Below are positions 2,678 to 46,618 of a stretch of DNA of 64,000 nt, one piece after another. The stretch comes from Phytophthora quininea (Eukaryota > Oomycota > Peronosporomycetes > Peronosporales > Peronosporaceae), in the NCBI GenBank assembly GCA_011947345.1, contig JAAVTG010000586.1:434001-498000 (forward strand). The letters run 5' to 3'. A program made the translations under genes and the position numbers. Below the pieces are notes generated by a model that was not told where the DNA came from, made no database searches, and worked only from the letters and a program-made list of their open reading frames with translations. Every line of letters starts with the position of its first letter. Position 1 is the stretch's first letter.

Positions 2678-2700
2678 CCGACTCGACACCTTTGCAGAAG

Positions 2701-7782: not shown

Positions 7783-10700
7783 ATGGCGTCCGCGCGTCCC
7801 GGCAGCAGCCAGCTCCTCGCCCTCGGCGTGGGCGACCACGTGACAGTGAAGCCCAAGCCTGGAGAAGACGCTCCCAAGAGACTCGGTCGCGTGCAGCGTC
7901 TGCGCTCCAGCGGCCACGTCGACGTTTTCTATGCGGACGGACAGGTGGAGCAGCGCGTGGGGCGCGACCGCCTCGTGGCGCCGCAGTCTCCCAGCAGCAA
8001 GACGCCTAGAAGCAGCAAGAACACTCCGACAGCAGCAGCGACCAGCAAAAGACCAAAAAGACAGCAGCAAACGACGCAGAAAGACCAAGAAGCAGTCGAC
8101 GAGCCGACAGAGACACCGAGCAGAAGCCTGCCGCAACAAGCAGAACCAAGTCCCCAGGAACAAGCCACAAGACCCGGCAGACGGATGCGTCGTCGTCGCA
8201 CACTGCGCGAGCTCCGCAAAAGCAATCCGTGACCTCGTCACGTCGACAACGAGACCTGAGCGACTCAGTCGCTCGAACGCAGCAGCAGGTGGCCGAGATT
8301 TTGCAAGCGATCGCAGCGACAGACGCCGATGCCATCTCTGTGGTAGGTCGAACGGGTTATTAGGTGGGGTTCTGGATCGTTTTCTGATGATTCTTATTAC
8401 CTGTTTGTGGTGTGCGAGCAGAAAAACTCGCTGTCATTGCTGCTTCGCGTGATTCGATCGGCGCCCCAGGTGACCGCAGAGTGCGTTCATGAACAACAGG
8501 GCGAGCTGCTGCTGCTGGACACGATCCAAACGCACTCGACGCACGCGGTTTTGCTCTGCTACGGCTGCGTGCTAATGCGCAAATTATGCCATCTGAGCGC
8601 TGATTCTTTAGAGCTTTTTACGCAGTACGGCATCGTCCCAACTGTTGCCCAAGCGCTTGTGAGCTTCCCGGACGACTCGATTCTGCAGGCATCAGCATGC
8701 GGTTGTCTTGCCGTCCTAACCCAGACAAGCGACATCAGCAAAACCGAGATGCTTGCGATGCGGAACCCGAGTATCCTTGAACTCGTGCTCGCATCCCTCG
8801 ACAGCCATCGCGAGTACTCAAATCTTACACGTCAAGTCCAGATTTATGCATGTGAAGGTGCGTTCTGCTTATTGATCTCGCCCTGGTTGTACTTAATGTA
8901 ACTTCTTGTTGCTTTGAACAGTGTTAACCGAACTGTGTGACTATGGTGGTGCATCCACTGTTGCCGCTTTGATATCCTCCGACTCCGCCCGCAAGGCTGA
9001 AACCCCGATAGAACTTATCGTCTCACTTATTCGTCAAAGCGTCGCGCGAGAAGACAAGAAAGTGACGTGCTCGTTTTGCACGCTCCTGCTGTGGTAAGCG
9101 ATTTAATTTGCCATCGATGTGAGGTACCATTTTTCTAACGAAAGCGCTTTTCTCAGTATGGCATCGATTAGCACAGCTGCAGCTGAGCTGTTGCGCGATC
9201 TTGGGGCCATCTCCGACATTTCAGTGGTCATGGCAAAGTATCCTGTCGACGAAGGTGATTCCTTTGTTTATCTGTCCTACAGGGAATTTGTAGAAATAAA
9301 CTGATGTCTTTCTTAACTTATGATGCAGGTATTATTCGATTTTCGGCTGCTGCGCTGCGAGAGATCGCCGAGACAAGTCTCAGCCATTCTCCTTCAAAGC
9401 GCGTCCATGAAACAGCAAGAGGTATTTTGGACGAACACATGCAAGAAGTGTCAGTGCCGTCATCCCGACTCCGCTCGCCTTTGAGCGGGTCTTTATCCAC
9501 TCGTAATCGGGATAGCTCGCCACGTGGAACGGGTCGAAGAGTCGATGCAGAGCAGAAGTCAGCAAGTCGACGACGGCCAAAGTCTCCTAATAGTCGTCCC
9601 AACACTTCGTTAGGGATCCCAACCCCAACGAGTGTGCATTCGTTCGGGCAAATGGCACATGTGCTTGGTGCGGCGCCAGCAGCATCTACCTATGCATCGC
9701 CTGTGAAACTAGCCGAAGATACCCGAAAATCGTCAGCAAAACCTTCAAGACTCCCGCCTCCACGAAGCCGAGATGAACATGCCCAGAGAGCAAGCGAGTT
9801 AAAGCGACGAAGCAACGGGAGTGGAAAACGTGATCGTCTGCTAATGAAGACATACGGAAATCCAACAGCAACTGGTTCTAAGGCCCAGCGAGCTGGCACT
9901 GCATCCAGTGCCATGACTGACAGAAGACTCACATCGGATAGTTCTGCGTCCCGGTTCAGTCCTCTCAAGAACAATTATCTGGGCACCGACGGTGTTACGT
10001 TTGTCATCCCGCCACCTCTTTCAAGCAGCCACTCTCTAGAGCAACCAATAGTATCACAAAGTATCAAGACTCCGACGCGTCCCCATTCTGCGCGTTTAAC
10101 ACCTCTCGTCAACGAACGGATAAAAATTTCAAATGCGAAACCAGAATTGGACTGGCAGAGTGGAAATGATTTGTGGCCGATGGATTCCAGTGGGAATTTA
10201 CGTCCTCAAACTGCTGTGGTAGTGACCAAGGTGTCCGATCACCCAAGCCGGCGTCGTTCGAATGAACTGGATAGGAGAAGGAAACGCGGGGATTCCAGAG
10301 AAAGGAAGCGAGATCGTGAGTCACCAGGAGTGTCATCGGCAGCACGAGGGGCGGATTATTTGGATTCTAAGGGAGGTTGCTTAACAAAAGCGATGACATG
10401 TATGATGAACCGATGGAAGAATCCCAGGACCGGTGGCATGAAGAGGAACGGAGTGGAAACTCTGACGTGACGGATATGGATCAATCAATGGCTGAATTGC
10501 GAGAGTTTGCACAACAATTACTGAGAGAAGAGGCTCGTATTTCATCCTTGCTCGCGCAGACTGCTTCCAAATCGCCCAGTCTGAACCGTATGAGTTTTTC
10601 GGATAAACTCCACAAAATGATAGAAATTGCAGAGTCATCGATGTATAAACGAAGCTCTCGTGGGTCAGCTCGATCACCCCAAGAGCAAGCTCAATTTTCT

Positions 10701-13700
10701 CCTCGTGAACACAGTGAGCAATCCGATGCTACAAGGGCAGTAGCAACAGAACCCGTGGAACCAGCAGTCACACGGAAAATTCCCTCAGTAGCAGAAGATA
10801 AGAGCGCTGTCTCTGAGCATCAAAAGGTGTCATCCACGGGGTACAAGAAAGCACGAACACCAGGCCATAAAAACAAAAACTTTCGGTCAAGAGCAATACA
10901 TTAGATCCTGACCGAAAGGGAACTGTCAGCCTTCCTGACCCAAAAGCACGGGTCCCCTTCCTCGAGCCGCTCCAGATTCTCGATAAAGCCCCCGCAAAAC
11001 AAGATACTGAAGAGCAAAGCCATTCGAGTTTGTCAGCACCAGAGGGTTCGTCCTCGACACGGCTACCAGATATGGAGAGTTCGCAACCGATGAAGGAGGA
11101 TGGCATTTGCGAAGAATCCATTCAAGAAGATATTTCAGTCCTACGTTGCCAATGACGACCCTATCCAATGCTGTAAATGAAGAAGAGGAAACAGTTCCAG
11201 AGAAAATCGAGGCGAAGCATGAAGACGATGACGAGTATCGAGATGTGAATTTATCTCTATCTGAAAAAACTTGCACGACCCCGTTGAAGCTGCAACCGTT
11301 GATGAGGACATTGAGATGACATCGCCACCAAAAGGAATCGAGGATTTGATATTAACTCAACTAAATTTGAACCTCCCGCGAACGAAGTGGAGGAGGAGAT
11401 GTACGAGGACGAGCAGAAGCTGTTTGATAAAGAAGTAAAGGCAGCAGACTTTGAGACTTCTCGAGAGGCGCCAAATGAAAGCGTGTTTGGAGAAAACCAT
11501 CTTGATGTATCGGAATGTGATTTTGACGGCGTGGATACGCTGTCACAAATGGATATAGTGAATATACAAAATCCGGCTTTGGAAGATGATAATGACAAAT
11601 CTGCCCCCGACGCCAACGTATTTGAGAAGCCAGATTACGAGATCGAATCTGAAGCTGATAAAATGTTGCTGGCTCTTTCAGACCCACGTGATCGGAAGAG
11701 CGAGGAGGACGAGGCAGACACGAAAGAAACAGAACCCAGTGTCACACTAGAGGATGAAGGTTACTACGACGATTTTGAACACGTTGAACTGCTGGATCCA
11801 GCCCAACCCGAGGTAAGTGCTACCTTTGACTGGGTAACAGCTCGAGCTATTTGTGAGCAATTCGTAAATCGTGGAATCATTGATGCATTGGCTGAGATCG
11901 ATGCATTAGGGGTGGTTTGTTTGGAGAGCACGGACTCTGGAGTTTGTGGATACGATAATGACGGCAATTTTGACAGCGAAATGGTTGACTTAGATCCAGC
12001 TGCGGAGCATGATGAAGTGGTGACCCCAACAGCAGCTGATTCTGTCCTGTTGACAGCTCTTCAAAATGTTGTCAACTCATTGGCCCCGCCAACAAAGCTG
12101 GCAGAAGAGATCATCACAACGACAATGAACCAGTTAACGGGTCGGATTCAAGACGACTCCTCCAGGATGCGTCCAGCATCAGCAACGAGGGTTTTCCGCC
12201 GCCTGTCGAGGAAATGGCCGCTGAAGTCGGTCGTATAGTGGCGTCAACGATTGCAGGGTCGCTAAGTAGTGCTGTGGAGCAACTTCGTTCTTTCCCTTTG
12301 GATGAGTCTCTAGGTTTCGGGGTTCTGCACCTGATGGAGAAATATTTGTGACAATGACACCGGAGTTTTGCCGAAATCTAAATGAGCTGGTTGCTGTTGC
12401 TGTCGAAGCTGTAGCTGATAGAATACGATCTCACGGCGAAATAGACATCAGTTCTTCAAGAGATATGTCCCTTCCTACACCAGATAGCGATACGATTACG
12501 TTACCAGAAGACAACAATGCCAGTGGTGATGTTAGCTATCGCTCGATGGCTTCATCAGGGGAAGAAGGGCAGGTGTCGATTCAGATGGCGAAAGCCATTC
12601 GCGACAGCGTTAATGGGATAATCGCGGTCTCTTTGGTTAGCATCATGGACCAACTTGAGCCCTCTGTCAATCAAGCCCAAGAACTTCCAGAGTTTGACGA
12701 CTCGTACGAGTTTGCTGCAACAGATCACCATCCTTCCCTGATTTTGGAAGATGACAAGATATTGCCGGCAAAAGCAGCAGTAGCTGTGGGTAGTTACGTC
12801 AACGGCTTAATCGCCATGGCTGTCCAAAACTCCGCTGAACGTGCTCTAGAGAATAGCAGTCATATAAGCAGTGTTCGAGAACTTACTGCACTGGCAGTGA
12901 ACATTGAGCTATCTCCAAGAGTGGAAGAATTTACTTGCCAGTTGAAAAATCCGTCGAATTTGGACGCAAGTCACTTAAAGAGTAAATCCTCTGCAGCTTA
13001 CGATTCTGACGTGGAAAATAACATTGAAGATGAGCTTCCCGTGCAGACAATTATTGCAATTAGTCGAAATATCGACGGCATCATCGCACTTTCACTCGAG
13101 AAAACAGTGAACCACTTGTGCTCGCCACAGCAGCAAGATATTGTTGGTGCTGAGCAGCAGCTCAGTGAGGAGACACTTGTTGTCCCACCAGGCGCATATT
13201 CTTCAGTGTCTATAATGGATTACGCAAACGACCTAACACTGTTGCCGTCGCAGCCAGAGACTGACGAAGCTGGTCATTTCGCAACGAGGGAGGATCAGAA
13301 TCCGTTAGATGCACAACAACCACGCACTGAAAGAGAGGTGCCAGAAGATGTATCCTCCGCGATCCGGCGAAACATTTCGGCAGTCGTTGCTGTTTCGTTA
13401 GAGTCAGTGTTACAAATATTGCACGTCGCTAGTGAACGGCTCGTTATTCGAACAAACCGTGACGAAGTAACAATAAGTGGAGACTCTCTAGCGCCATCGG
13501 TGCTGACGACGTTAGAACATTCCGCTCCGAGTGAACTCGCCAATGTTTATGAAAGTGGCTCTTCAAAAGCGAAAACCCCACCGCAAGAACTGGATATCTG
13601 CCATCAAGATGACAGCTCGGATGATTTGCCAGTGGCAATGTCCATTTCAATTCAACGAAGTGTCAACGCAATTTTGATGCAGGCGCTTCAAAATGTGATA

Positions 13701-16700
13701 GTGGATTTGTCCCATGAATCTAGACTACCTGATGATGAAGTATCGCTTCAACTTCCTGATCCTTCTGATCATCTTACGACGGAACGGGTGGCTTACGATC
13801 ACGGTGCAGTTATCGCGGCGATCGAGTCCTGTGACCAGATTTCCCCCATGACGAAGACAATCAAACGTTAGAACGAAGTGCAAGTGGAATTTCTATTCAA
13901 ATGGCGATTGCTGTACGGTGGACAGTTAGCGGGATGATCGCTCTAGCCGTTGAGAATGCTATCACGGATTGTATGTCGGAGAGCATACTGCAACTGCCAC
14001 CCGGCACTGTGATAGAACCGGCTAAGTGTGAAACACTGGATGTCGAATCCCAGCAGAGCACTTCGGATCGCCCTATCAATGCCATTACACAAGAAATCTC
14101 CAGCGACATGACTCATGCAATTCGCCAGACTGTGGACGAAATCATTGACAAAACCGCCACTAGTGTTTTAGCTCAGATTGGTCCTTGCACTGTCAATGAG
14201 TTGCTGTCCCAATTATCTATGGACAACGTCGCAATTGGTGCTGGTGAACTACCAACGCAAAAGGAGATGTCTGCAGCTTTCGAAGCCGTTGGCGGGGTGG
14301 GGTTTAACACACTTCCAGTGCAGATGTCCGTGGCAATTCAGCAAGCTGTGAATGGCCTGATTGGCACATCGCTTCAGGCTGCATTGGAAGATGTTATGGG
14401 TAAAGCTCAGGCTGTTCAACCAGTTGATCCTGCTACGGCCAAGTCCCAAATGGATAGCCCCGCGATTGAAAGTGTGCACGTTTCAGAGGGCAGGCCCCAC
14501 TTTACTCCCGTACATATTCCGCCTTTGGTTTTCCCCTTACATGCGGGAGCAAGCGAGCGCAAACATGTCGAAGTGAAGTCAGAAGAAAATGATCCAGTAG
14601 AATTGTCCGTAATGGCTGCGATTGCAGTGAGTCGAACGGTAAATGCTGTCATTGCGTCTGGAGTTGAAAAAGTGTTCGACTCGATGATCAACGTGGGAAA
14701 CTCGCTTGCAGCTGGCGTGGGCGCAAAAGAAATGGATCGTAATCCTGGAGTGCCTGAACAAGAAACTATTTCAATCACCCCGCCAAAGTCAACTGCTACT
14801 CCTCAAGACATGAATGCGAAGTGTAATGAAGATCACACTAGTGGCAACGATGAAGTGAAAGCTTTGTCACCATCGATGTCGATCGCTATAGCACGCTCCG
14901 TCAGGGCAATGCTACTGGAGGCAGTAGAGAGCGCTGCTCAACAAATCGAAATACCTGGTGATTATGAAGACGATGTCCAGTTTATAAAAGACGAAGTACT
15001 TGAAATTTCTCCCGCTGGAGGTGTTATCCCGTCCTCGTCAGACTATGATGATCCTGTATCGATCGCAATCACAAGTGTCGTCAACATCATGACCGAACAC
15101 ACATTACAAGCCGTCACCATTGCGAACACTACAAACAGTCCGCCTCAAACTAAAGAAAATACTAATTCACCCACCCCGGTTGCCGCTGCGGTGACTCCCG
15201 CGGAAGCTGCCGAAGCCGTGCCGGAAGACGTGGTGTCGCCGGAGGTGGAGTTCTCGTCTGCGTCGGAGGAGACGATGGTGGAGTTGATGGCGGCTGTTGA
15301 GACGACGGCCGCCGCGGCCATAGCTGCCGACGCGGAAGCCGCTGCCGCAGCCGAAGCCGCAGCCGAAGCCGCACCCGTATCGGCGACCGATGTGGCGGCT
15401 GCTGCCGAAGAGCTGGTGAGCGCAGTGGAGTCGACCGTTGCGTCGGCAGCGACAGCACAAGAGGAGGCTGTGGTGCCGGAGGCGGAGATCGTCGTGGGGA
15501 CACCGGACGCGACCACGGAGCCTGCCGCGGACGCTCAGGCAGAGGCCGAGTCTGCGACCGAGGTAGCGGCCGCAACCGAGCAGCTTGTGAGCGCGGTCGA
15601 GTCGGACACGACAGCGGCTGCGGTGACTCCCGCGGAAGCTGCCGAAGCCGTGCCGGAAGACGTGGTGTCGCCGGAGGTGGAGTTCTCGTCTGCGTCGGAG
15701 GAGACGATGGTGGAGTTGATGGCGGCTGTTGAGACGACGGCCGCCGCGGCCATAGCTGCCGACGCGGAAGCCGCTGCCGCAGCCGAAGCCGCAGCCGCAG
15801 CCGAAGCCGCCCCCGTATCGGCGACCGATGTGGCGGCTGCTGCCGAAGAGCTGGTGAGCGCAGTGGAGTCGACCGTTGCGTCGGCAGCGACAGCACAAGA
15901 GGAGGCTGTGGTGCCGGAGGCGGAGATCGTCGTGGGGACACCGGACGCGACCACGGAGCCTGCCGCGGACGCTCAGGCAGAGGCCGAGTCTGCGACCGAG
16001 GTAGCGGCCGCAACCGAGCAGCTTGTGAGCGCGGTCGAGTCGGACACGACAGCGGCTGCGGTGACTCCCGCGGAAGCTGCCGAAGCCGTGCCGGAAGACG
16101 TGGTGTCGCCGGAGGTGGAGTTCTCGTCTGCGTCGGAGGAGACGATGGTGGAGTTGATGGCGGCTGTTGAGACGACGGCCGCCGCGGCCATAGCTGCCGA
16201 CGCGGAAGCCGCTGCCGCAGCCGAAGCCGCAGCCGAAGCCGCACCCGTATCGGCGACCGATGTGGCGGCTGCTGCCGAAGAGCTGGTGAGCGCAGTGGAG
16301 TCGACCGTTGCGTCGGCAGCGACAGCACAAGAGGAGGCTGTGGTGCCGGAGGCGGAGATCGTCGTGGGGACACCGGACGCGACCACGGAGCCTGCCGCGG
16401 ACGCTCAGGCAGAGGCCGAGTCTGCGACCGAGGTAGCGGCCGCAACCGAGCAGCTTGTGAGCGCGGTCGAGTCGGACACGACAGCGGCTGCGGTGACTCC
16501 CGCGGAAGCTGCCGAAGCCGTGCCGGAAGACGTGGTGTCGCCGGAGGTGGAGTTCTCGTCTGCGTCGGAGGAGACGATGGTGGAGTTGATGGCGGCTGTT
16601 GAGACGACGGCCGCCGCGGCCATAGCTGCCGACGCGGAAGCCGCTGCCGCAGCCGAAGCCGCAGCCGTATCGGCGACCGATGTGGCGGCTGCTGCCGAAG

Positions 16701-19700
16701 AGCTGGTGAGCGCAGTGGAGTCGACCGTTGCGTCGGCAGCGACAGCACAAGAGGAGGCTGTGGTGCCGGAGGCGGAGATCGTCGTGGGGACACCGGACGC
16801 GACCACGGAGCCTGCCGCGGACGCTCAGGCAGAGGCCGAGTCTGCGACCGAGGTAGCGGCCGCAACCGAGCAGCTTGTGAGCGCGGTCGAGTCGGACACG
16901 ACAGCGGCTGCGGTGACTCCCGCGGAAGCTGCCGAAGCCGTGCCGGAAGACGTGGTGTCGCCGGAGGTGGAGTTCTCGTCTGCGTCGGAGGAGACGATGG
17001 TGGAGTTGATGGCGGCTGTTGAGACGACGGCCGCCGCGGCCATAGCTGCCGACGCGGAAGCCGCTGCCGCAGCCGAAGCCGCAGCCGAAGCCGCACCCGT
17101 ATCGGCGACCGATGTGGCGGCTGCTGCCGAAGAGCTGGTGAGCGCAGTGGAGTCGACCGTTGCGTCGGCAGCGACAGCACAAGAGGAGGCTGTGGTGCCG
17201 GAGGCGGAGATCGTCGTGGGGACACCGGACGCGACCACGGAGCCTGCCGCGGACGCTCAGGCAGAGGCCGAGTCTGCGACCGAGGTAGCGGCCGCAACCG
17301 AGCAGCTTGTGAGCGCGGTCGAGTCGGACACGACAGCGGCTGCGGTGACTCCCGCGGAAGCTGCCGAAGCCGTGCCGGAAGACGTGGTGTCGCCGGAGGT
17401 GGAGTTCTCGTCTGCGTCGGAGGAGACGATGGTGGAGTTGATGGCGGCTGTTGAGACGACGGCCGCCGCGGCCATGGCTGCCGACGCGGAAGCCGCTGCC
17501 GCAGCCGAAGCCGCAGCCGCAGCCCAAGCCGCACCCGTATCGGCGACCGATGTGGCGGCTGCTGCCGAAGAGCTGGTGAGCGCAGTGGAGTCGACCGTTG
17601 CGTCTGCAGCGACAGCAGAAGAGGAGGCTGTGGTGCCGGAGGCGGAGATCGTCGTGGGGACACCGGACGCGACCACGGAGCCTGCCGCGGACGCTCAGGC
17701 AGAGGCCGAGTCTGCGACCGAGGTAGCGGCCGCAACCGAGCAGCTTGTGAGCGCGGTCGAGTCGGACACGACAGCGGCTGCGGTGACTCCCGCGGAAGCT
17801 GCCGAAGCCGTGCCGGAAGACGTGGTGTCGCCGGAGGTGGAGTTCTCGTCTGCGTCGGAGGAGACGATGGTGGAGTTGATGGCGGCTGTTGAGACGACGG
17901 TCGCCGCGGCCATGGCTGCCGACGCGGAAGCCGCTGCCGCAGCCGAAGCCGCAAGCCAAGCCCAAGCCCAAGCCGCACCCGTATCGGCGACCGATGTGGC
18001 GGCTGCTGCCGAAGAGCTGGTGAGCGCAGTGGAGTCGACCGTTGCGTCGGCAGCGACAGCAGAAGAGGAGGCTGTGGTGCCGGAGGCGGAGATCGTCGTG
18101 GGGACACCGGACGCGACCACGGAGCCTGCCGCGGACGCTCAGGCAGAGGCCGAGTCTGCGACCGAGGTAGCGGCCGCAACCGAGCAGCTTGTGAGCGCGG
18201 TCGAGTCGGACACGACAGCGGCTGCGGTGACTCCCGCGGAAGCTGCCGAAGCCGTGCCGGAAGACGTGGTGTCGCCGGAGGTGGAGTTCTCGTCTGCGTC
18301 GGAGGAGGCGATGGTGGAGTTGATGGCGGCTGTTGAGACGACGGTCGCCGCGGCCATGGCTGCCGACGCGGAAGCCGCTGCCGCAGCCGCAGCCGAAGCC
18401 GCAAGCCCAAGCCGCACCCGTATCGGCGACCGATGTGGCGGCTGCTGCCGAAGAGCTGGTGAGCGCAGTGGAGTCGACCGTTGCGTCGGCAGCGACAGCA
18501 GAAGAGGAGGCTGTGGTGCCGGAGGCGGAGGTCGTCGTGGGGACACCGGACGCGACCACGGAGCCTGCCGCGGACGCTCAGGCAGAGGCCGAGTCTGCGA
18601 CCGAGGTAGCGGCCGCAACCGAGCAGCTTGTGAGCGCGGTCGAGTCGGACACGACAGCGGCTGCGGTGACTCCCGCGGAAGCTGCCGAAGCCGTGCCGGA
18701 AGACGTGGTGTCGCCGGAGGTGGAGTTCTCGTCTGCGTCGGAGGAGGCGATGGTGGAGTTGATGGCGGCTGTTGAGACGACGGTCGCCGCGGCCATGGCT
18801 GCCGACGCGGAAGCCGCTGCCGCAGCCGAAGCCGAAGCCCAAGCCGAAGCCGCCCCCGTATCGGCGACCGATGTGGCGGCTGCTGCCGAAGAGCTGGTGA
18901 GCGCAGTGGAGTCGACCGTTGCGTCTGCAGCGACAGCACAAGAGGAGGCTGTGGTGCCGGAGGCGGAGATCGTCGTGGGGACACCGGACGCGACCACGGA
19001 GCCTGCCGCGGACGCTCAGGCAGAGGCCGAGTCTGCGACCGAGGTAGCGGCCGCAACCGAGCAGCTTGTGAGCGCGGTCGAGTCGGACACGACAGCGGCT
19101 GCGGTGACTCCCGCGGAAGCTGCCGAAGCCGTGCCGGAAGACGTGGTGTCGCCGGAGGTGGAGTTCTCGTCTGCGTCGGAGGAGACGATGGTGGAGTTGA
19201 TGGCGGCTGTTGAGACGACGGCCGCCGCGGCCATGGCTGCCGACGCGGAAGCCGCTGCCGCAGCCGAAGCCGCCCAAGCCCGTATCGGCGACCGATGTGG
19301 CGGCTGCTGCCGAAGAGCTGGTGAGCGCAGTGGAGTCGACCGTTGCGTCGGCAGCGACAGCACAAGAGGAGGCTGTGGTGCCGGAGGCGGAGATCGTCGT
19401 GGGGACACCGGACGCGACCACGGAGCCTGCCGCGGACGCTCAGGCAGAGGCCGAGTCTGCGACCGAGGTAGCGGCCGCAACCGAGCAGCTTGTGAGCGCG
19501 GTCGAGTCGGACACGACAGCGGCTGCGGTGACTCCGCGGAAGCTGCCGAAGCCGTGCCGGAAGACGTGGTGTCGCCGGAGGTGGAGTTCTCGTCTGCGTC
19601 GGAGGAGACGATGGTGGAGTTGATGGCGGCTGTTGAGACGACGGCCGCCGCGGCCATAGCTGCCGACGCGGAAGCCGCTGCCGCAGCCGAGCCGAGCCGC

Positions 19701-22700: not shown

Positions 22701-25700
22701 TGAGACGACGGCCGCCGCGGCCATAGCTGCCGACGCGGAAGCCGCTGCCGCAGCCGCAGCCGCAGCCGAAGCCGCACCCGTATCGGCGACCGATGTGGCG
22801 GCTGCTGCCGAAGAGCTGGTGAGCGCAGTGGAGTCGACCGTTGCGTCGGCAGCGACAGCACAAGAGGAGGCTGTGGTGCCGGAGGCGGAGATCGTCGTGG
22901 GGACACCGGACGCGACCACGGAGCCTGCCGCGGACGCTCAGGCAGAGGCCGAGTCTGCGACCGAGGTAGCGGCCGCAACCGAGCAGCTTGTGAGCGCGGT
23001 CGAGTCGGACACGACAGCGGCTGCGGTGACTCCCGCGGAAGCTGCCGAAGCCGTGCCGGAAGACGTGGTGTCGCCGGAGGTGGAGTTCTCGTCTGCGTCG
23101 GAGGAGACGATGGTGGAGTTGATGGCGGCTGTTGAGACGACGGCCGCCGCGGCCATGGCTGCCGACGCGGAAGCCGCTGCCGCAGCCGAAGCCGCAGCCG
23201 CAGCCGAAGCCGCACCCGTATCGGCGACCGATGTGGCGGCTGCTGCCGAAGAGCTGGTGAGCGCAGTGGAGTCGACCGTTGCGTCGGCAGCGACAGCACA
23301 AGAGGAGGCTGTGGTGCCGGAGGCGGAGATCGTCGTGGGGACACCGGACGCGACCACGGAGCCTGCCGCGGACGCTCAGGCAGAGGCCGAGTCTGCGACC
23401 GAGGTAGCGGCCGCAACCGAGCAGCTTGTGAGCGCGGTCGAGTCGGACACGACAGCGGCTGCGGTGACTCCCGCGGAAGCTGCCGAAGCCGTGCCGGAAG
23501 ACGTGGTGTCGCCGGAGGTGGAGTTCTCGTCTGCGTCGGAGGAGACGATGGTGGAGTTGATGGCGGCTGTTGAGACGACGGCCGCCGCGGCCATAGCTGC
23601 CGACGCGGAAGCCGCTGCCGCAGCCGAAGCCGCAAGCCGTATCGGCGACCGATGTGGCGGCTGCTGCCGAAGAGCTGGTGAGCGCAGTGGAGTCGACCGT
23701 TGCGTCGGCAGCGACAGCACAAGAGGAGGCTGTGGTGCCGGAGGCGGAGATCGTCGTGGGACACCGGACGCGACCACGGAGCCTGCCGCGGACGCTCAGG
23801 CAGAGGCCGAGTCTGCGACCGAGGTAGCGGCCGCAACCGAGCAGCTTGTGAGCGCGGTCGAGTCGGACACGACAGCGGCTGCGGTGACTCCCGCGGAAGC
23901 TGCCGAAGCCGTGCCGGAAGACGTGGTGTCGCCGGAGGTGGAGTTCTCGTCTGCGTCGGAGGAGACGATGGTGGAGTTGATGGCGGCTGTTGAGACGACG
24001 GCCGCCGCGGCCATGGCTGCCGACGCGGAAGCCGCTGCCGCAGCCGAAGCCGCAGCCGCAAGCCGCACCGTATCGGCGACCGATGTGGCGGCTGCTGCCG
24101 AAGAGCTGGTGAGCGCAGTGGAGTCGACCGTTGCGTCGGCAGCGACAGCACAAGAGGAGGCTGTGGTGCCGGAGGCGGAGATCGTCGTGGGGACACCGGA
24201 CGCGACCACGGAGCCTGCCGCGGACGCTCAGGCAGAGGCCGAGTCTGCGACCGAGGTAGCGGCCGCAACCGAGCAGCTTGTGAGCGCGGTCGAGTCGGAC
24301 ACGACAGCGGCTGCGGTGACTCCCGCGGAAGCTGCCGAAGCCGTGCCGGAAGACGTGGTGTCGCCGGAGGTGGAGTTCTCGTCTGCGTCGGAGGAGACGA
24401 TGGTGGAGTTGATGGCGGCTGTTGAGACGACGGCCGCCGCGGCCATAGCTGCCGACGCGGAAGCCGCTGCCGCAGCCGAAGCCGCAGCCGAAGCCGCACC
24501 CGTATCGGCGACCGATGTGGCGGCTGCTGCCGAAGAGCTGGTGAGCGCAGTGGAGTCGACCGTTGCGTCGGCAGCGACAGCACAAGAGGAGGCTGTGGTG
24601 CCGGAGGCGGAGATCGTCGTGGGGACACCGGACGCGACCACGGAGCCTGCCGCGGACGCTCAGGCAGAGGCCGAGTCTGCGACCGAGGTAGCGGCCGCAA
24701 CCGAGCAGCTTGTGAGCGCGGTCGAGTCGGACACGACAGCGGCTGCGGTGACTCCCGCGGAAGCTGCCGAAGCCGTGCCGGAAGACGTGGTGTCGCCGGA
24801 GGTGGAGTTCTCGTCTGCGTCGGAGGAGACGATGGTGGAGTTGATGGCGGCTGTTGAGACGACGGCCGCCGCGGCCATAGCTGCCGACGCGGAAGCCGCT
24901 GCCGCAGCCGAAGCCGCAGCCGAAGCCGCACCCGTATCGGCGACCGATGTGGCGGCTGCTGCCGAAGAGCTGGTGAGCGCAGTGGAGTCGACCGTTGCGT
25001 CGGCAGCGACAGCACAAGAGGAGGCTGTGGTGCCGGAGGCGGAGATCGTCGTGGGGACACCGGACGCGACCACGGAGCCTGCCGCGGACGCTCAGGCAGA
25101 GGCCGAGTCTGCGACCGAGGTAGCGGCCGCAACCGAGCAGCTTGTGAGCGCGGTCGAGTCGGACACGACAGCGGCTGCGGTGACTCCCGCGGAAGCTGCC
25201 GAAGCCGTGCCGGAAGACGTGGTGTCGCCGGAGGTGGAGTTCTCGTCTGCGTCGGAGGAGACGATGGTGGAGTTGATGGCGGCTGTTGAGACGACGGCCG
25301 CCGCGGCCATAGCTGCCGACGCGGAAGCCGCTGCCGCAGCCGAAGCCGCAGCCGCAGCCGAAGCCGCACCCGTATCGGCGACCGATGTGGCGGCTGCTGC
25401 CGAAGAGCTGGTGAGCGCAGTGGAGTCGACCGTTGCGTCGGCAGCGACAGCACAAGAGGAGGCTGTGGTGCCGGAGGCGGAGATCGTCGTGGGGACACCG
25501 GACGCGACCACGGAGCCTGCCGCGGACGCTCAGGCAGAGGCCGAGTCTGCGACCGAGGTAGCGGCCGCAACCGAGCAGCTTGTGAGCGCGGTCGAGTCGG
25601 ACACGACAGCGGCTGCGGTGACTCCCGCGGAAGCTGCCGAAGCCGTGCCGGAAGACGTGGTGTCGCCGGAGGTGGAGTTCTCGTCTGCGTCGGAGGAGAC

Positions 25701-28700
25701 GATGGTGGAGTTGATGGCGGCTGTTGAGACGACGGCCGCCGCGGCCATAGCTGCCGACGCGGAAGCCGCTGCCGCAGCCGAAGCCGCAGCCGAAGCCGCA
25801 CCCGTATCGGCGACCGATGTGGCGGCTGCTGCCGAAGAGCTGGTGAGCGCAGTGGAGTCGACCGTTGCGTCGGCAGCGACAGCACAAGAGGAGGCTGTGG
25901 TGCCGGAGGCGGAGATCGTCGTGGGGACACCGGACGCGACCACGGAGCCTGCCGCGGACGCTCAGGCAGAGGCCGAGTCTGCGACCGAGGTAGCGGCCGC
26001 AACCGAGCAGCTTGTGAGCGCGGTCGAGTCGGACACGACAGCGGCTGCGGTGACTCCCGCGGAAGCTGCCGAAGCCGTGCCGGAAGACGTGGTGTCGCCG
26101 GAGGTGGAGTTCTCGTCTGCGTCGGAGGAGACGATGGTGGAGTTGATGGCGGCTGTTGAGACGACGGCCGCCGCGGCCATAGCTGCCGACGCGGAAGCCG
26201 CTGCCGCAGCCGAAGCCGCAGCCGCAGCCGAAGCCGCACCCGTATCGGCGACCGATGTGGCGGCTGCTGCCGAAGAGCTGGTGAGCGCAGTGGAGTCGAC
26301 CGTTGCGTCGGCAGCGACAGCACAAGAGGAGGCTGTGGTGCCGGAGGCGGAGATCGTCGTGGGACACCGGACGCGACCACGGAGCCTGCCGCGGACGCTC
26401 AGGCAGAGGCCGAGTCTGCGACCGAGGTAGCGGCCGCAACCGAGCAGCTTGTGAGCGCGGTCGAGTCGGACACGACAGCGGCTGCGGTGACTCCCGCGGA
26501 AGCTGCCGAAGCCGTGCCGGAAGACGTGGTGTCGCCGGAGGTGGAGTTCTCGTCTGCGTCAGGAGGAGACGATGGTGGAGTTGATGGCGGCTGTTGAGAC
26601 GACGGCCGCCGCGGCCATAGCTGCCGACGCGGAAGCCGCTGCCGCAGCCGAAGCCGCAGCCGAAGCCGCACCCGTATCGGCGACCGATGTGGCGGCTGCT
26701 GCCGAAGAGCTGGTGAGCGCAGTGGAGTCGACCGTTGCGTCGGCAGCGACAGCACAAGAGGAGGCTGTGGTGCCGGAGGCGGAGATCGTCGTGGGGACAC
26801 CGGACGCGACCACGGAGCCTGCCGCGGACGCTCAGGCAGAGGCCGAGTCTGCGACCGAGGTAGCGGCCGCAACCGAGCAGCTTGTGAGCGCGGTCGAGTC
26901 GGACACGACAGCGGCTGCGGTGACTCCCGCGGAAGCTGCCGAAGCCGTGCCGGAAGACGTGGTGTCGCCGGAGGTGGAGTTCTCGTCTGCGTCGGAGGAG
27001 ACGATGGTGGAGTTGATGGCGGCTGTTGAGACGACGGCCGCCGCGGCCATAGCTGCCGACGCGGAAGCCGCTGCCGCAGCCGAAGCCGCAGCCGAAGCCG
27101 CACCCGTATCGGCGACCGATGTGGCGGCTGCTGCCGAAGAGCTGGTGAGCGCAGTGGAGTCGACCGTTGCGTCGGCAGCGACAGCACAAGAGGAGGCTGT
27201 GGTGCCGGAGGCGGAGATCGTCGTGGGGACACCGGACGCGACCACGGAGCCTGCCGCGGACGCTCAGGCAGAGGCCGAGTCTGCGACCGAGGTAGCGGCC
27301 GCAACCGAGCAGCTTGTGAGCGCGGTCGAGTCGGACACGACAGCGGCTGCGGTGACTCCCGCGGAAGCTGCCGAAGCCGTGCCGGAAGACGTGGTGTCGC
27401 CGGAGGTGGAGTTCTCGTCTGCGTCGGAGGAGACGATGGTGGAGTTGATGGCGGCTGTTGAGACGACGGCCGCCGCGGCCATAGCTGCCGACGCGGAAGC
27501 CGCTGCCGCAGCCGAAGCCGCAGCCGCAGCCGAAGCCGCACCCGTATCGGCGACCGATGTGGCGGCTGCTGCCGAAGAGCTGGTGAGCGCAGTGGAGTCG
27601 ACCGTTGCGTCGGCAGCGACAGCACAAGAGGAGGCTGTGGTGCCGGAGGCGGAGATCGTCGTGGGGACACCGGACGCGACCACGGAGCCTGCCGCGGACG
27701 CTCAGGCAGAGGCCGAGTCTGCGACCGAGGTAGCGGCCGCAACCGAGCAGCTTGTGAGCGCGGTCGAGTCGGACACGACAGCGGCTGCGGTGACTCCCGC
27801 GGAAGCTGCCGAAGCCGTGCCGGAAGACGTGGTGTCGCCGGAGGTGGAGTTCTCGTCTGCGTCGGAGGAGACGATGGTGGAGTTGATGGCGGCTGTTGAG
27901 ACGACGGCCGCCGCGGCCATAGCTGCCGACGCGGAAGCCGCTGCCGCAGCCGAAGCCGCAGCCGCAGCCGAAGCCGCACCCGTATCGGCGACCGATGTGG
28001 CGGCTGCTGCCGAAGAGCTGGTGAGCGCAGTGGAGTCGACCGTTGCGTCGGCAGCGACAGCACAAGAGGAGGCTGTGGTGCCGGAGGCGGAGATCGTCGT
28101 GGGGACACCGGACGCGACCACGGAGCCTGCCGCGGACGCTCAGGCAGAGGCCGAGTCTGCGACCGAGGTAGCGGCCGCAACCGAGCAGCTTGTGAGCGCG
28201 GTCGAGTCGGACACGACAGCGGCTGCGGTGACTCCCGCGGAAGCTGCCGAAGCCGTGCCGGAAGACGTGGTGTCGCCGGAGGTGGAGTTCTCGTCTGCGT
28301 CGGAGGAGACGATGGTGGAGTTGATGGCGGCTGTTGAGACGACGGCCGCCGCGGCCATAGCTGCCGACGCGGAAGCCGCTGCCGCAGCCGAAGCCGCAGC
28401 CGCAGCCGAAGCCGCACCCGTATCGGCGACCGATGTGGCGGCTGCTGCCGAAGAGCTGGTGAGCGCAGTGGAGTCGACCGTTGCGTCGGCAGCGACAGCA
28501 CAAGAGGAGGCTGTGGTGCCGGAGGCGGAGATCGTCGTGGGGACACCGGACGCGACCACGGAGCCTGCCGCGGACGCTCAGGCAGAGGCCGAGTCTGCGA
28601 CCGAGGTAGCGGCCGCAACCGAGCAGCTTGTGAGCGCGGTCGAGTCGGACACGACAGCGGCTGCGGTGACTCCCGCGGAAGCTGCCGAAGCCGTGCCGGA

Positions 28701-31700
28701 AGACGTGGTGTCGCCGGAGGTGGAGTTCTCGTCTGCGTCGGAGGAGACGATGGTGGAGTTGATGGCGGCTGTTGAGACGACGGCCGCCGCGGCCATAGCT
28801 GCCGACGCGGAAGCCGCTGCCGCAGCCGAAGCCGCAGCCGAAGCCGCACCCGTATCGGCGACCGATGTGGCGGCTGCTGCCGAAGAGCTGGTGAGCGCAG
28901 TGGAGTCGACCGTTGCGTCGGCAGCGACAGCACAAGAGGAGGCTGTGGTGCCGGAGGCGGAGATCGTCGTGGGGACACCGGACGCGACCACGGAGCCTGC
29001 CGCGGACGCTCAGGCAGAGGCCGAGTCTGCGACCGAGGTAGCGGCCGCAACCGAGCAGCTTGTGAGCGCGGTCGAGTCGGACACGACAGCGGCTGCGGTG
29101 ACTCCCGCGGAAGCTGCCGAAGCCGTGCCGGAAGACGTGGTGTCGCCGGAGGTGGAGTTCTCGTCTGCGTCGGAGGAGACGATGGTGGAGTTGATGGCGG
29201 CTGTTGAGACGACGGCCGCCGCGGCCATAGCTGCCGACGCGGAAGCCGCTGCCGCAGCCGAAGCCGCAGCCGAAGCCGCACCCGTATCGGCGACCGATGT
29301 GGCGGCTGCTGCCGAAGAGCTGGTGAGCGCAGTGGAGTCGACCGTTGCGTCGGCAGCGACAGCACAAGAGGAGGCTGTGGTGCCGGAGGCGGAGATCGTC
29401 GTGGGGACACCGGACGCGACCACGGAGCCTGCCGCGGACGCTCAGGCAGAGGCCGAGTCTGCGACCGAGGTAGCGGCCGCAACCGAGCAGCTTGTGAGCG
29501 CGGTCGAGTCGGACACGACAGCGGCTGCGGTGACTCCCGCGGAAGCTGCCGAAGCCGTGCCGGAAGACGTGGTGTCGCCGGAGGTGGAGTTCTCGTCTGC
29601 GTCGGAGGAGACGATGGTGGAGTTGATGGCGGCTGTTGAGACGACGGCCGCCGCGGCCATAGCTGCCGACGCGGAAGCCGCTGCCGCAGCCGAAGCCGCA
29701 GCCGAAGCCGCACCCGTATCGGCGACCGATGTGGCGGCTGCTGCCGAAGAGCTGGTGAGCGCAGTGGAGTCGACCGTTGCGTCGGCAGCGACAGCACAAG
29801 AGGAGGCTGTGGTGCCGGAGGCGGAGATCGTCGTGGGGACACCGGACGCGACCACGGAGCCTGCCGCGGACGCTCAGGCAGAGGCCGAGTCTGCGACCGA
29901 GGTAGCGGCCGCAACCGAGCAGCTTGTGAGCGCGGTCGAGTCGGACACGACAGCGGCTGCGGTGACTCCCGCGGAAGCTGCCGAAGCCGTGCCGGAAGAC
30001 GTGGTGTCGCCGGAGGTGGAGTTCTCGTCTGCGTCGGAGGAGACGATGGTGGAGTTGATGGCGGCTGTTGAGACGACGGCCGCCGCGGCCATAGCTGCCG
30101 ACGCGGAAGCCGCTGCCGCAGCCGAAGCCGCAGCCGCAGCCGAAGCCGCACCCGTATCGGCGACCGATGTGGCGGCTGCTGCCGAAGAGCTGGTGAGCGC
30201 AGTGGAGTCGACCGTTGCGTCGGCAGCGACAGCACAAGAGGAGGCTGTGGTGCCGGAGGCGGAGATCGTCGTGGGGACACCGGACGCGACCACGGAGCCT
30301 GCCGCGGACGCTCAGGCAGAGGCCGAGTCTGCGACCGAGGTAGCGGCCGCAACCGAGCAGCTTGTGAGCGCGGTCGAGTCGGACACGACAGCGGCTGCGG
30401 TGACTCCCGCGGAAGCTGCCGAAGCCGTGCCGGAAGACGTGGTGTCGCCGGAGGTGGAGTTCTCGTCTGCGTCGGAGGAGACGATGGTGGAGTTGATGGC
30501 GGCTGTTGAGACGACGGCCGCCGCGGCCATAGCTGCCGACGCGGAAGCCGCTGCCGCAGCCGAAGCCGCAGCCGCAGCCGAAGCCGCACCCGTATCGGCG
30601 ACCGATGTGGCGGCTGCTGCCGAAGAGCTGGTGAGCGCAGTGGAGTCGACCGTTGCGTCGGCAGCGACAGCACAAGAGGAGGCTGTGGTGCCGGAGGCGG
30701 AGATCGTCGTGGGGACACCGGACGCGACCACGGAGCCTGCCGCGGACGCTCAGGCAGAGGCCGAGTCTGCGACCGAGGTAGCGGCCGCAACCGAGCAGCT
30801 TGTGAGCGCGGTCGAGTCGGACACGACAGCGGCTGCGGTGACTCCCGCGGAAGCTGCCGAAGCCGTGCCGGAAGACGTGGTGTCGCCGGAGGTGGAGTTC
30901 TCGTCTGCGTCGGAGGAGACGATGGTGGAGTTGATGGCGGCTGTTGAGACGACGGCCGCCGCGGCCATAGCTGCCGACGCGGAAGCCGCTGCCGCAGCCG
31001 AAGCCGCAGCCGCAGCCGAAGCCGCACCCGTATCGGCGACCGATGTGGCGGCTGCTGCCGAAGAGCTGGTGAGCGCAGTGGAGTCGACCGTTGCGTCGGC
31101 AGCGACAGCACAAGAGGAGGCTGTGGTGCCGGAGGCGGAGATCGTCGTGGGGACACCGGACGCGACCACGGAGCCTGCCGCGGACGCTCAGGCAGAGGCC
31201 GAGTCTGCGACCGAGGTAGCGGCCGCAACCGAGCAGCTTGTGAGCGCGGTCGAGTCGGACACGACAGCGGCTGCGGTGACTCCCGCGGAAGCTGCCGAAG
31301 CCGTGCCGGAAGACGTGGTGTCGCCGGAGGTGGAGTTCTCGTCTGCGTCGGAGGAGACGATGGTGGAGTTGATGGCGGCTGTTGAGACGACGGCCGCCGC
31401 GGCCATAGCTGCCGACGCGGAAGCCGCTGCCGCAGCCGAAGCCGCAGCCGAAGCCGCACCCGTATCGGCGACCGATGTGGCGGCTGCTGCCGAAGAGCTG
31501 GTGAGCGCAGTGGAGTCGACCGTTGCGTCGGCAGCGACAGCACAAGAGGAGGCTGTGGTGCCGGAGGCGGAGATCGTCGTGGGGACACCGGACGCGACCA
31601 CGGAGCCTGCCGCGGACGCTCAGGCAGAGGCCGAGTCTGCGACCGAGGTAGCGGCCGCAACCGAGCAGCTTGTGAGCGCGGTCGAGTCGGACACGACAGC

Positions 31701-32422
31701 GGCTGCGGTGACTCCCGCGGAAGCTGCCGAAGCCGTGCCGGAAGACGTGGTGTCGCCGGAGGTGGAGTTCTCGTCTGCGTCGGAGGAGACGATGGTGGAG
31801 TTGATGGCGGCTGTTGAGACGACGGCCGCCGCGGCCATGGCTGCCGTCGCTGGCTGGGCCTCTGTAAATGAGATGGAGACTTCTGAATTCGTGCAAGCGA
31901 TGGAGCCTAATATTACGACTACCTCTGTAGAGGGCTCTGTGGAGTCCCAGACACCGTCGAGAGAGGATGAGGAGGTTGTGTTAACTGAGGTGGGGATGCA
32001 TGAGATGCCTGCAATCACTGCTGGAACGATTCCCCGTTTGAAAGGTTATGGAGTGATGACGATCTTTATCCTTTGCCAGCTGTAAAGATTGCTAACGCTA
32101 CTCCTACTGAGGTGTCGGCGACCGCGGTAACAAGTGCAGTTATCGGGGCGCTGTTGGAGGTTATCGACACGGTAGACTTTGATAACGAAAGCACTTACTA
32201 TCCGGATTCAGCACGAGCCGAGGAAGAGACTGACGTCGTGGCCGCAAGCCGTGACCCCACTCCTCGTTCTGAAAGGACGAGTCCAGCGACGACACTGTCG
32301 AGATGGTTCGCTTGCCTGAACCGAGTCCGGCCGAGCTGTCTGCAGCGGCAAGTAGCTACGCTGTCGTAGGAGCTCTCATAGACGTCATGGACGCTGTCGA
32401 CACGGATGACAGCGCTCAATAA
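7783..32422 (+). CDS. Giant ARM-like / helix-module / tandem-repeat protein (~8,100 aa), function unknown
   Basis: Start ATG 7783 (MASARPGSSQLLALGVGDHV). Residues about 10-70 are a small barrel-like domain (VGDHVTVKPKPGED, VFYADGQVEQRVGRDRL). Introns 8343-8421, 8858-8921, 9094-9156 and 9255-9328 join exons encoding an armadillo/HEAT-like helical region (about residues 187-480: VLLCYGCVLMRKLCHL, SILQASACGCLAVLTQ, ACEVLTELCDYGG, SAAALREIAETSL). A Ser/Arg/Pro-rich linker and an acidic region follow. About fifteen amphipathic modules (11.8-15.1 kb) lead into 38 tandem units (about residues 2370-7930) and a tail with two more modules (TAVTSAVIGALLEVIDTV; YAVVGALIDVMDAVDTDD), stop TAA 32420-32422. 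Single-base losses break the frame near 8008, 10371, 10881, 11149, 11264, 11345, 12159, 12319, 13840, 32055 and 32270, plus breaks inside the array. No signal peptide or membrane segment. Possibly a cytoskeletal or flagellar scaffold; no homologue recognised. Confidence 0.7.
11800..15130 (+). repeat. Degenerate amphipathic-helix modules (about 15) preceding the array
   Basis: Within the giant gene, modules of about 25 residues recur, separated by acidic Ser/Pro linkers. Examples: SVNGIIAVSLVSIMDQL, SYVNGLIAMAVQNSAERA, SRNIDGIIALSLEKTVNHL, RRNISAVVAVSLESVLQIL, QRSVNAILMQALQNVIVDL, RWTVSGMIALAVENAITDC, QQAVNGLIGTSLQAALEDV, SRTVNAVIASGVEKVFDSM and ARSVRAMLLEAVESAAQQI. The shared pattern is roughly S-V-N-G/A-hydrophobic-I-A-x-A/S-L/V-E/Q-x-V. 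They are diverged at the DNA level, so they are older than the array. Confidence 0.75.
15181..31850 (+). repeat. 38 full + 1 partial tandem copies of a ~432/438-bp coding unit
   Basis: Spacing between copies, measured at the VVGTPDATTEP site, is mostly 432 or 438 bp (range 420-450). The unit (144 or 146 aa) runs VTPAEAAEAVPEDVVSPEV, SASEETMVELMAAVETTA, a hinge of AEAAA-type residues, then VSATDVAAAAEELVSAVES, AVVPEAEIVVGTPDATTEP, and SATEVAAATEQLVSAVES. Copies 22-38 are almost identical and differ mainly by a 6-bp step in the hinge. Copies about 6-17 form a variant group (EEAM, TVAAAM, AEEE, EVVVG) with unusual Gln/Lys/Pro hinges. The last copy stops after 150 bp at AAAAMAAVAGW. The DNA lacks stop codons in several frames, so long false ORFs appear on both strands. 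Confidence 0.95.
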
Positions 32423-44500: not shown

Positions 44501-46618
44501 GGGTGAGGAAGAAGAGAATGGTGGAGTCTTTGGGACGTTGTTTGACGACTTCACAAAGAAAACTAGTGAGTGGAAAGCTTGGTATGACCTGGAAGCCCCT
44601 GAACTCGCAGACCTTCCGTGTGGGTACTCAGACAAGCTGTCCAGCTTGCAGAAACTGCTGGTCTTCCGTTGCTTCCGACAGGACCGTGTGTACAACGCCA
44701 TGAAGCTGTTTGTGATGGCAGTGATGGGAGAAAAGTTTGTGCAGCCTCCGGTGCTGGACTACGCTCGTATCTACAGTCAGAGTGCTGCCACTTCGCCAAT
44801 CGTTTGCATTCTAAGTCCTGGAGCTGACCCACAGAGCGATATTCAAACTCTTGGCGATGAGTACGGGTTTTCGGGCCATCGATTCAAATTTTTGGCTTTG
44901 GGACAAGGCCAAGGACCACTCGCTGAGCAAATGTTGGAGGCAGGAGCAACTCGCGGGCACTGGGTGTTACTGCAGAATTGCCACCTGCTTGCTAGCTGGC
45001 TGAGAACGTTAGAGAAAATGCTGTTGGCCATGACAAAGCCGCACAAAGACTTCCGCCTGTGGCTCACGACGGAACCAACTGATCGATTTCCTCTGGGGAT
45101 TTTGCAGCGGTCACTGAAGGTGGTCACGGAGCCTCCGGATGGCCTTAAGCAGAACATGCGCAGTCTGTACTCAAAGCTGGACCAAAGCATGCTGGAAGAG
45201 TGTCCACACGGCGCCTTCCGCTCCGTAGTCTACGTGCTGTGCTTCTTGCATGCTGTGGTGCTCGAGCGTCGCAAATACGGGAAGATTGGGTGGAACGTCA
45301 GCTACGACTTCAACGAGTCCGATTTTACGATTTCCCGAAAGCTACTGAGTCTCTATCTCTTCAAGGCCTACGAAGACCGCGACGAACAATTGCCGTGGGG
45401 CTCATTGAAATATCTCATTGGCGACGCGATGTATGGCGGTCGTGTTAGTGACGATTACGATCGTCGCATCCTCACGACGTACCTGTCCGAATACATGGGC
45501 GACTTTCTCTTCGACGACTGCCAGCGGTTTTACTTTAGTCGTTCGGGATTTGACTACGTTCTTCCCGGAGCAGTGGAGGGCAATTCCAGCCCATTATCTC
45601 TCCAACTGGAAGATTACGTGGCAACAGTGGAGACACTACCACTCACGAACAGTCCTGCGGTGTTTGGACTTCACCCGAACGCCGAGATTGGCTACTACAC
45701 GAACATGTCGAAGAGCGTGTGGAAGGACCTGATCTCGTTGCAGCCGCGATCTGCACAGTCGGGCGCAGGCATTTCTCGGGAAGACCACATTGGCAACGTG
45801 GCTAGCGACATTCAGTCCAAGGTCCCTGAGCCTGTTGATGTGGATCTGATCCGCAAGAAGTTGGGATTGACTCCGACGCCGACGCAAGTGGTGCTGCTGC
45901 AGGAACTGGATCGCTGGAACTTGCTGACGGCTCGGATGCGAGTGTCGCTGGGAGATCTCCAGAAGGCGCTCGTAGGCGAGATCGGTATGAGCGACGAGCT
46001 GGACGCTGTGGGCAATGCACTCTACGACGGCTTCCTGCCCAATTTGTGGCGGTCGTTGTGTCCCAAGACTGAAAAGCCTCTAGGCAGCTGGATGGAGCAC
46101 TTCACCCAGCGCTTCAAACAGTACATGGACTGGGTGGCGCATGGCGATCCTCGCGTCATGTGGCTGTCGGGTCTGGGGATCCTGAGTCGTATCTGACGGC
46201 GCTAGTGCAGGCTACGTGTCGAGCCAAGAATTGGCCGCTGGACAAGTCGACGCTCTACACGCGCGTCACGAGCTTCACATACGACTCGCAGCTGCCTCCG
46301 TTGGACGGCGCGAAAGACGACGGGTGCTTTGTCAAAGGATTGTATCTGGAAGGAGCGTCCTGGGACTTGGAACACGGCTGCCTCGCCCCACAGCGGCCTA
46401 AACAGCTCGTGGAAGAGCTTCCGATCCTGCAAGTCATCCCGATAGAGGCCAGTCGTCTCAAGCTGCAGAACACATTCCGCACCCCAGTGTACGTGACTCA
46501 GTCTCGACGCAACGCCATGGGCGTCGGTCTCGTGTTTGAAGCGGATCTCTTCTCCACGGAGCACTCGTCCCATTGGGTTCTGCAAGGCGTCGCACTCGCA
46601 CTCAACACCGACTACTAA
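32542..46618 (+). CDS. DNAH10: Axonemal dynein heavy chain, DNAH10 / inner-arm I1-alpha type
   Basis: Microtubule motor ATPase of the inner dynein arm in the flagellar axoneme. Start ATG 32542 ([20 protein letters not shown]). Introns 32768-32829 and 32878-32938 keep phase. Tail to about residue 1700. AAA1 P-loop GPAGTGKTE near residue 1966 (38.57 kb), with [12 protein letters not shown] after it; AAA2 GPTGGGKT near 2258; AAA3 GESGTAKT near 2611; AAA4 GVGGSGKQ near 2966. Stalk coiled coils and microtubule-binding tip lie at about 42.2-43.1 kb. C-terminus ends [20 protein letters not shown] before TAA 46616-46618, about 4,650 residues, a normal full length. DNAH10 assignment rests on stretches such as [13 protein letters not shown] and [20 protein letters not shown], compared from memory. 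Fifteen frame changes: 35421, 35593, 36526, 36806, 38175, 39034, 39073, 39700, 40665, 41083, 41755, 43491, 44346, 44391 and 46175, all explained by lost simple-repeat bases. Confidence 0.92.

Follow-up and report, generated by a model that had tools for sequence, protein, structure and literature searches.

We analysed a 64,000-nucleotide stretch of the Phytophthora quininea genome (contig C578:434001-498000, hereafter the window) and found in it a reading path, running from an ATG at 7783 to a stop near 32422, that is probably truly coding and a single gene, with a new layout. The account that we favour, tentatively and with a little less than even confidence, is that this one gene encodes an intracellular giant scaffold or spacer of about 8,100 residues and that its frame breaks are assembly errors. 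All genome searches were run against one assembly of 87.2 Mb in 993 contigs. A sequence-only reading of the window had described such a gene, and to it our analysis adds a paralogue, the finding that the repeats fall into separate classes, the absence of basic residues from the typical array unit, a control for assembly errors, and modules modelled as single helices with a four-residue period. The anatomy of the gene, the head that it has in common with the paralogue, their unlike tails, and the composition and homogeneity of the array were obtained by computation.

The sequence-only reading had placed the start of the gene at ATG 7783 and followed it with five phase-compatible exons. We found the same arrangement, with four introns that have GT..AG ends and phases that fit. 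All features of the gene lie on the plus strand. Exon 1 (7783..8342) encodes a putative Tudor/SH3-like barrel (7783-7980) and then a basic low-complexity linker, and holds one frame break, which was placed within about 8010-8230. It is followed by intron 1 (8343..8421), exon 2 (8422..8857), intron 2 (8858..8921), exon 3 (8922..9093), intron 3 (9094..9156), exon 4 (9157..9254) and intron 4 (9255..9328). Exons 2 to 4 encode an ARM-like helical region, which ends in the first part of exon 5 and is succeeded there by a basic Ser/Arg-rich linker (9329..10480). From 9329 onward the path was taken without introns. It continues through the short motif MSFSDKLHKMIEIAESSM (10590..10643), an acidic linker with Y..F-D/E type motifs and several frame breaks (10892..12140), 13 helix modules with 28-residue cores and linkers between them (12202..15133), a tandem array of 38 complete copies and one partial copy (15185..31850), and two tail repeats (32082..32192 and 32306..32416), the second just ahead of the stop. 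Upstream of the array the path was assembled from 10 open segments and so has 9 junctions, and the last two junctions lie in the tail. The segments chain to a stop at about 32420-32422, as expected from the earlier claim of a stop 24.6 kb away, and the predicted protein has about 8,086 residues.

We searched with the ARM region of the head. This region, including exon 2, matched Pfam ARM_LRRK2 at E 4.3e-5 to 4.6e-5, below the gathering cut-off, and matched LRRK2 chains in the PDB at E 0.058 and weaker. In the genome it has one other place, C570:105765-106610 (2 of 6 match rows at E<=10). This place belongs to a paralogue of the head on the minus strand, at about 107,475-98,310 of that contig, with two Tudor domains and about 2,990 residues. 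The ARM region of the paralogue matched the LRRK2 ARM profile at E 6.3e-5, again below the curated cut-off, and at positions that overlap those matched by the window gene. The two ARM regions are homologous, with 40.5% identity over 279 aa by blastp (E 2e-52), and intron 2, after YACE, has the same place and phase in both genes. Intron 4 is apparently absent from the paralogue. The ARM-like helices of the sequence-only reading are supported by these matches. The ARM region had no match in viral contigs, and among prokaryote genomes 21 pattern matches were obtained, of which 0 were confirmed.

The paralogue has the order two Tudor domains, acidic linker, ARM region, basic linker, LSFAEKLHKMIDKAKSSL and acidic tail, and it runs from the ARM region through the linker into the acidic tail as one chain of open segments. 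Its Tudor domains matched Tudor_5 (E 3e-14), with Agenet and Tudor_3 also above cut-off. The motif MSFSDKLHKMIEIAESSM of the window gene resembles LSFAEKLHKMIDKAKSSL of the paralogue; both fall in the second blastp block (E 5e-4), and a MAFFT alignment left them unpaired. The N-terminal barrel that had been proposed for the window gene gave no reported Pfam match of its own at E<=10 and draws tentative support from its relatives. It resembles a multi-Tudor protein on another contig (E 6e-4, a weak match) and aligns with the second Tudor domain of the paralogue. The multi-Tudor protein, at C419:1098296-1100908, consists of tandem Tudor-like barrels (six match rows; more than 10 barrels by eye). 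As judged by these alignments, the head composed of a Tudor-like barrel (putative in the window gene), ARM region, basic linker and KLHKMI motif is a family of two paralogues in this genome. The statement that no named family has this layout agrees with Pfam and with NCBIfam, in which six pieces gave only weak matches far below cut-off; the head, having a paralogue, is not unique.

The tails of the two paralogues are alike in acidity only. Over 1,830 positions the paralogue tail is 28% Asp+Glu and 5% Lys+Arg. It contains 13 Y..F-D/E motifs, compared with a shuffle mean of 0.99 and a maximum of 6 in 1,000, by a pattern that was defined only after the paralogue tail had been read. No homologous tail was found between the window gene and the paralogue, as the array and the module piece each match their own locus only. 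We read the window gene as what would be the longer of two paralogues with one head (Tudor-like barrel, ARM-like domain, basic Ser/Arg linker and SF..KLHKMI motif), each of which would carry downstream its own distinct, strongly acidic repeat tail.

We examined the array by its anchors, of which there are 38, bounding 37 intervals. Copies were numbered by anchor, so that the partial copy is number 38, and interval 10 is double and stands for two copies. The 38-copy array of the sequence-only reading is confirmed as 38 complete copies with a partial 39th, in frame with both flanks: an open frame at 13835-18775 enters it from unique sequence and another at 26491-32085 exits into unique sequence. 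Copy lengths are mostly 432 or 438 bp (range 420-450), and 30 of the 37 intervals are divisible by three and stop-free, the double interval being excluded by the length limit. In at least one of these 30, copy 19, two breaks compensate each other, and short frame excursions occur in copies 14-16 and 20. The breaks in the array lie chiefly in copies 8-16, with others in 19, 25 and 26. The array gave no other match in the assembly and found only its own locus (E<=0.001).

The array is strongly acidic. Among the 146 residues of the typical unit are 52 Ala, 25 Glu and 6 Asp, and no Lys, Arg, His, Cys, Trp, Tyr or Asn. Base shuffles of the unit gave a mean of 26 Arg+Lys and a minimum of 13, compared with 0 observed. 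Because the unit has neither Lys nor Arg, the proteomics for repeat peptides that had been suggested as a check would fail with trypsin; if the protein is real, standard trypsin proteomics would overlook the array, and short reads could hardly assemble it. The copies are also very alike, with 6 variable sites in 402 bp, mostly in copies 6-16. This count excludes the Ala/Glu tract, its edge and the exit of the partial copy from the repeat, and keeps 37 of 38 head stretches (26 dropped) and 35 of 37 end stretches (19 and 25 dropped), those dropped being out of register. The length of the Ala/Glu tract shifts mainly by 6-bp steps, equal to two residues. The array has been recently homogenised, perhaps by unequal exchange or gene conversion, and its length can thus change quickly. 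The G+C content of the array is 69.8%, compared with 47.8% in 12318-15184, as if biased conversion went along with homogenisation. On the minus strand an antisense open frame of 3,747 codons (20737-31980) runs through the array, which does not indicate a gene; it is open because the near-identical units are all stop-free. Since a stop missing from one such unit is missing from all, and two antisense frames are likewise open, the length of the open frame in the array is not independent evidence.

The modules upstream of the array were tested against one another. We chose 13 cores of 28 residues by eye from 15 candidates and dropped 2 before testing, which makes the p-values somewhat generous. 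In leave-one-out tests with 1,000 neighbourhood shuffles, a profile of the remaining modules recognised 12 of the 13 (p=0.001 each) and missed the thirteenth, m14 (p=0.138). AlphaFold2 modelled the module segments as one long helix over residues 11-42 (12 of 13 segments, aligned with one another), with a block predicted local distance difference test (pLDDT) of 92-98 over residues 11-40. When 11 modules were averaged, leaving aside m3 and m14, hydrophobic columns recurred at every fourth residue, with a peak at 90 degrees (p=0.005). In single modules the hydrophobic moment is weak, with p<0.05 in 2 of 13. The module piece 13844-15184 had no second genomic match, only its own locus (E<=10, 2 candidates scored), and against the PDB the module profile gave one chance-level match at E<=10, to PsbZ (E 0.97). 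Weak Pfam matches in the module region to YqiJ_N (E 0.0022) and YabP (E 0.073) fell below cut-off and were set aside.

The four-residue spacing raised a further explanation, that the protein is a multivalent AKAP-like anchor whose modules dock the RIIa/Dpy-30 dimerisation domains and so would place signalling proteins along a flagellar structure. The module helices are like those of AKAP5 (2h9r), D-AKAP2 (3im4) and AKAP7 (4zp3) in that each is a single helix in which hydrophobic pairs recur at about every fourth residue, as read by eye. Scored by a pair pattern of period 4, six of the 11 modules reached 8 of 8 and the other five 7 of 8, with AKAP5 at 8, AKAP7 at 7 and D-AKAP2 at 6; of 4,250 dynein 28-mers, 0.8% reached 8 and 10% reached at least 7. 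On the module profile the AKAP5 helix fell within the top 1.1% of 4,322 dynein 22-mers. The genome has 3 RIIa and 6 Dpy-30 rows above curated cut-off, two of the Dpy-30 rows being adjacent pieces, and the neighbour gene is an inner-arm dynein. However, the AKAP helices have no significant sequence similarity to the modules (shuffle p of 0.138 for AKAP5, 0.24 for D-AKAP2 and 0.47 for AKAP7), the module profile matched no AKAP chain in the PDB at E<=10, and no RII-binding family was reported at E<=10. The pair pattern was defined after the modules had been seen, ARM 28-mers score 7 or more in 18%, and the weak moment of single modules also speaks against docking. The portions available to us of two background papers on AKAP docking helices (PMC12203939, PMC8339350) gave no consensus usable for testing. 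We regard the AKAP-like anchor as very unlikely; if the docking reading is true, the window protein would be among the largest multivalent anchoring proteins. Just 5' of a guanylate-kinase-like open frame we noted by eye an RIIa-like stretch, at C521:243096-243182.

The sequence-only reading had taken the tail as two more modules; that the tail or the array consists of further copies of the upstream modules was not confirmed. The comparison of unit with modules (p=0.90), of tail with modules (p=0.93) and of unit with tail (p=0.83) stayed at chance level, in a test that the Ala-rich unit blunts. A single repeat family of modules, array and tail was accordingly dropped. The two tail repeats are a separate pair, related to each other (score 85, p=0.001). 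The unit has three putative sub-repeats, two of which are related to each other (score 67, p=0.001); the third gave p=0.17 and 0.09. As far as can be seen from sequence, the window gene has three repeat classes rather than one, namely the 13 modules, the array and the tail pair.

Frame breaks like those of the path also occur in other genes. The neighbouring dynein gene consists of 12 open pieces over 13.8 kb, with 11 junctions, some of them possibly introns. Its breaks fall inside Pfam domains, whose profile coordinates run on from one piece to the next: AAA_7 5-102 then 93-181, AAA_8 1-99 then 98-257, AAA_9 1-47 then 25-222, and Dynein_C 2-163 then 166-308. AAA_6 runs 1-191 then 199-327 across an in-frame stop, a site that could alternatively be an intron. 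The paralogue on C570 breaks at least as often as the giant gene, with 16 segments over about 9.2 kb; one of its junctions is an intron and one segment keeps 3 stops. Chaperonin genes gave 39 genome matches, some whole and some broken, for example into 3 consecutive pieces on contig C3. Since the breaks are not peculiar to the giant gene, sequence errors are their simplest reading, and they look like assembly or sequence errors, as had been proposed. Pairs of chaperonin matches on C858/C859 and on C375/C527 have identical or nearly identical scores, which suggests unmerged haplotypes. No second haplotype copy of the giant's locus was found in genome searches with the array, the ARM region and the module piece.

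We scored codon usage along the path with a table trained on the dynein (3,206 codons), using 50 scoring windows, each of 300 nt, over the part up to 15.4 kb; 11 of these straddle segments. The proposed frame was the top plus frame in 34 of the 39 non-straddling windows. Four of the five misses start at 9583-10183, in the Ser/Arg-rich stretch where codon usage is equivocal, and the fifth at 12283. From window 11383 onward no minus frame scored above the proposed frame. Exon 2 and the stretch from 11.4 kb onward have good codon support, and the stretch at 9.3-11.4 kb has weak support.

Several results weigh against our reading, and the first of these concern the stretch between the head and the modules. 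In 11 of the 39 windows a minus frame outscored the proposed frame, namely in window 8083 and in ten starting at 9283-11233, so that in most windows at 9.3-11.4 kb some minus frame beats it. Seven junctions lie within 1.9 kb at 10.4-12.3 kb, which is denser than average, and a gene boundary or a missed intron there is possible. The break density and the weak codon signal together lower our confidence in a single gene, which stands as the best reading of the path with these two reservations. If there are instead two or more genes, a Tudor-ARM gene would end near 10.4-12.3 kb and a separate gene would hold the modules, the array and the tail. This is consistent with the contrast between those seven junctions and the 11, introns perhaps among them, over 13.8 kb of dynein, with the equivocal codon usage, and with the lack of any other genomic match to the module piece. 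However, of the 7 unambiguous windows that start at 11233-12433, 6 have the proposed frame as their best plus frame, with no higher minus frame from 11383, the open segments of the paralogue form a single chain from ARM region through linker to acidic tail, and the KLHKMI motif at 10.6 kb is common to both genes. We consider two or more genes a serious though unlikely alternative to one.

The remaining points on the same side concern the array and the role of the protein. The lack of basic residues is not extreme under shuffles within codon positions, which gave a mean Arg+Lys of 3.4 and a minimum of 0. The differences among the copies are 5 non-synonymous and 1 synonymous, giving no purifying signal in numbers too small to test selection. 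The structure of the array was poorly modelled: two units, run as single sequence, gave three long helices per unit at a mean pLDDT of 55.1. These results bear on the explanation that the array is a satellite that is open in frame by chance, in a decaying or artefactual locus with no giant protein. The many frame breaks, the open antisense frames, the abutment of a 70% GC array on a 48% GC module region and the missing purifying signal would all fit a satellite. In contrast, breaks are about as dense in the paralogue and in the dynein, a conserved gene, the array keeps phase with the sequence on either side, and the 30 of 37 intervals that are stop-free multiples of three (leaving the double interval uncounted and allowing for the compensating breaks of copy 19) would not be expected of it. 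A chance-open satellite is in our judgement quite unlikely. Finally, that one transcript covers the gene, where the protein resides and what it does are matters we infer; a scaffold is plausible, the role being taken from the anatomy alone.

Under the single-gene account, the folded head and the basic linker would anchor the protein on a fixed partner, which may belong to the cytoskeleton or to chromatin. The 13 helices, spaced by acidic linkers, may act as many weak binding sites, and the polyanionic array of 5,500 residues may serve as a long spacer or brush, in which length, helicity and charge would outweigh exact sequence. That two paralogues have a common head and different but similarly acidic tails suggests that the bulk properties of the tail matter, as far as two cases allow. 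The paralogue's Tudor domains and the extreme acidity of the unit, with its lack of basic residues, would also suit an acidic nuclear protein in which a Tudor head reads methylated basic tails and a polyanionic tail chaperones basic proteins. We think this highly improbable, as the window barrel has no reported Pfam match and nothing points to the nucleus. A bolder proposal is that of a new giant family, in which the Tudor-ARM head acquired a different acidic repeat polymer independently in each paralogue, the window protein having about a dozen RIIa/Dpy-30 docking helices and a spacer whose length changes fast; this we offer as a long shot. If the single giant is real, this flagellated protist has a protein of unusual size, with a stretch of about 5,500 residues almost without basic residues. 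The presence of one head with two different acidic tails would allow a direct test of whether selection keeps the length and charge of a tail and not its sequence.

The gene downstream of the giant is a separate one on the plus strand (32809..46618), a dynein heavy chain of the DNAH10 or inner-arm f(I1)-alpha type. Its identity comes from one 296-residue piece searched against the PDB, which matched 8glv_Cn best (E 1.6e-130), followed by DNAH10 and IDAf-alpha. Beyond the dynein lies a Vps39-type gene in several open pieces, with a CNH domain and a C-terminal zinc finger (48101-51285, minus strand). Upstream of the giant lie a PIH1-domain gene on the plus strand (2590-3834) and, on the minus strand, a gene that matches SPA/DENND11 (5283-6251). 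The dynein and PIH1 neighbours are weak evidence for a flagellar role.

We compared the window protein with known systems by layout. Such a giant protein was not found in the literature, as judged by titles and abstract openings, which does not prove its absence from print. The Lpv large peripheral vesicle protein of Phytophthora (PnLpv) is, in the portion of its report that we used, a glycoprotein of >400 kDa stored in vesicles (PMC3869178). It is like the window protein in being an oomycete protein above 400 kDa, with sequences not compared. However, the window protein has a Tudor-like barrel within about 15 residues of its start and no signal peptide by eye. FAZ10 of Trypanosoma brucei, a giant protein of the cytoskeleton, is described, in the accessible part of its paper, as having 52 near-identical 35-aa repeats and a predicted mass of 502 kDa, with about 2000 kDa seen on blots, and its authors state that the repeat region is possibly misassembled (PMC5358337). 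The likeness, one of layout with no comparison of sequences, is that of a giant with near-identical tandem repeats, whereas the FAZ10 repeats are of 35 aa and lie in coiled-coil domains. H49/calpain of Trypanosoma cruzi, as far as the source consulted goes, is a cytoskeletal protein with a large central block of 68-aa (204 bp) repeats (PMC3214072). It too is alike in layout, having a large tandem-repeat block (sequences again not compared), and differs in its calpain-like domains at both ends and in its repeat length. By this analogy, and from what these partial sources describe, FAZ10 and H49 appear to be the systems closest in kind to the window protein among those that we found.

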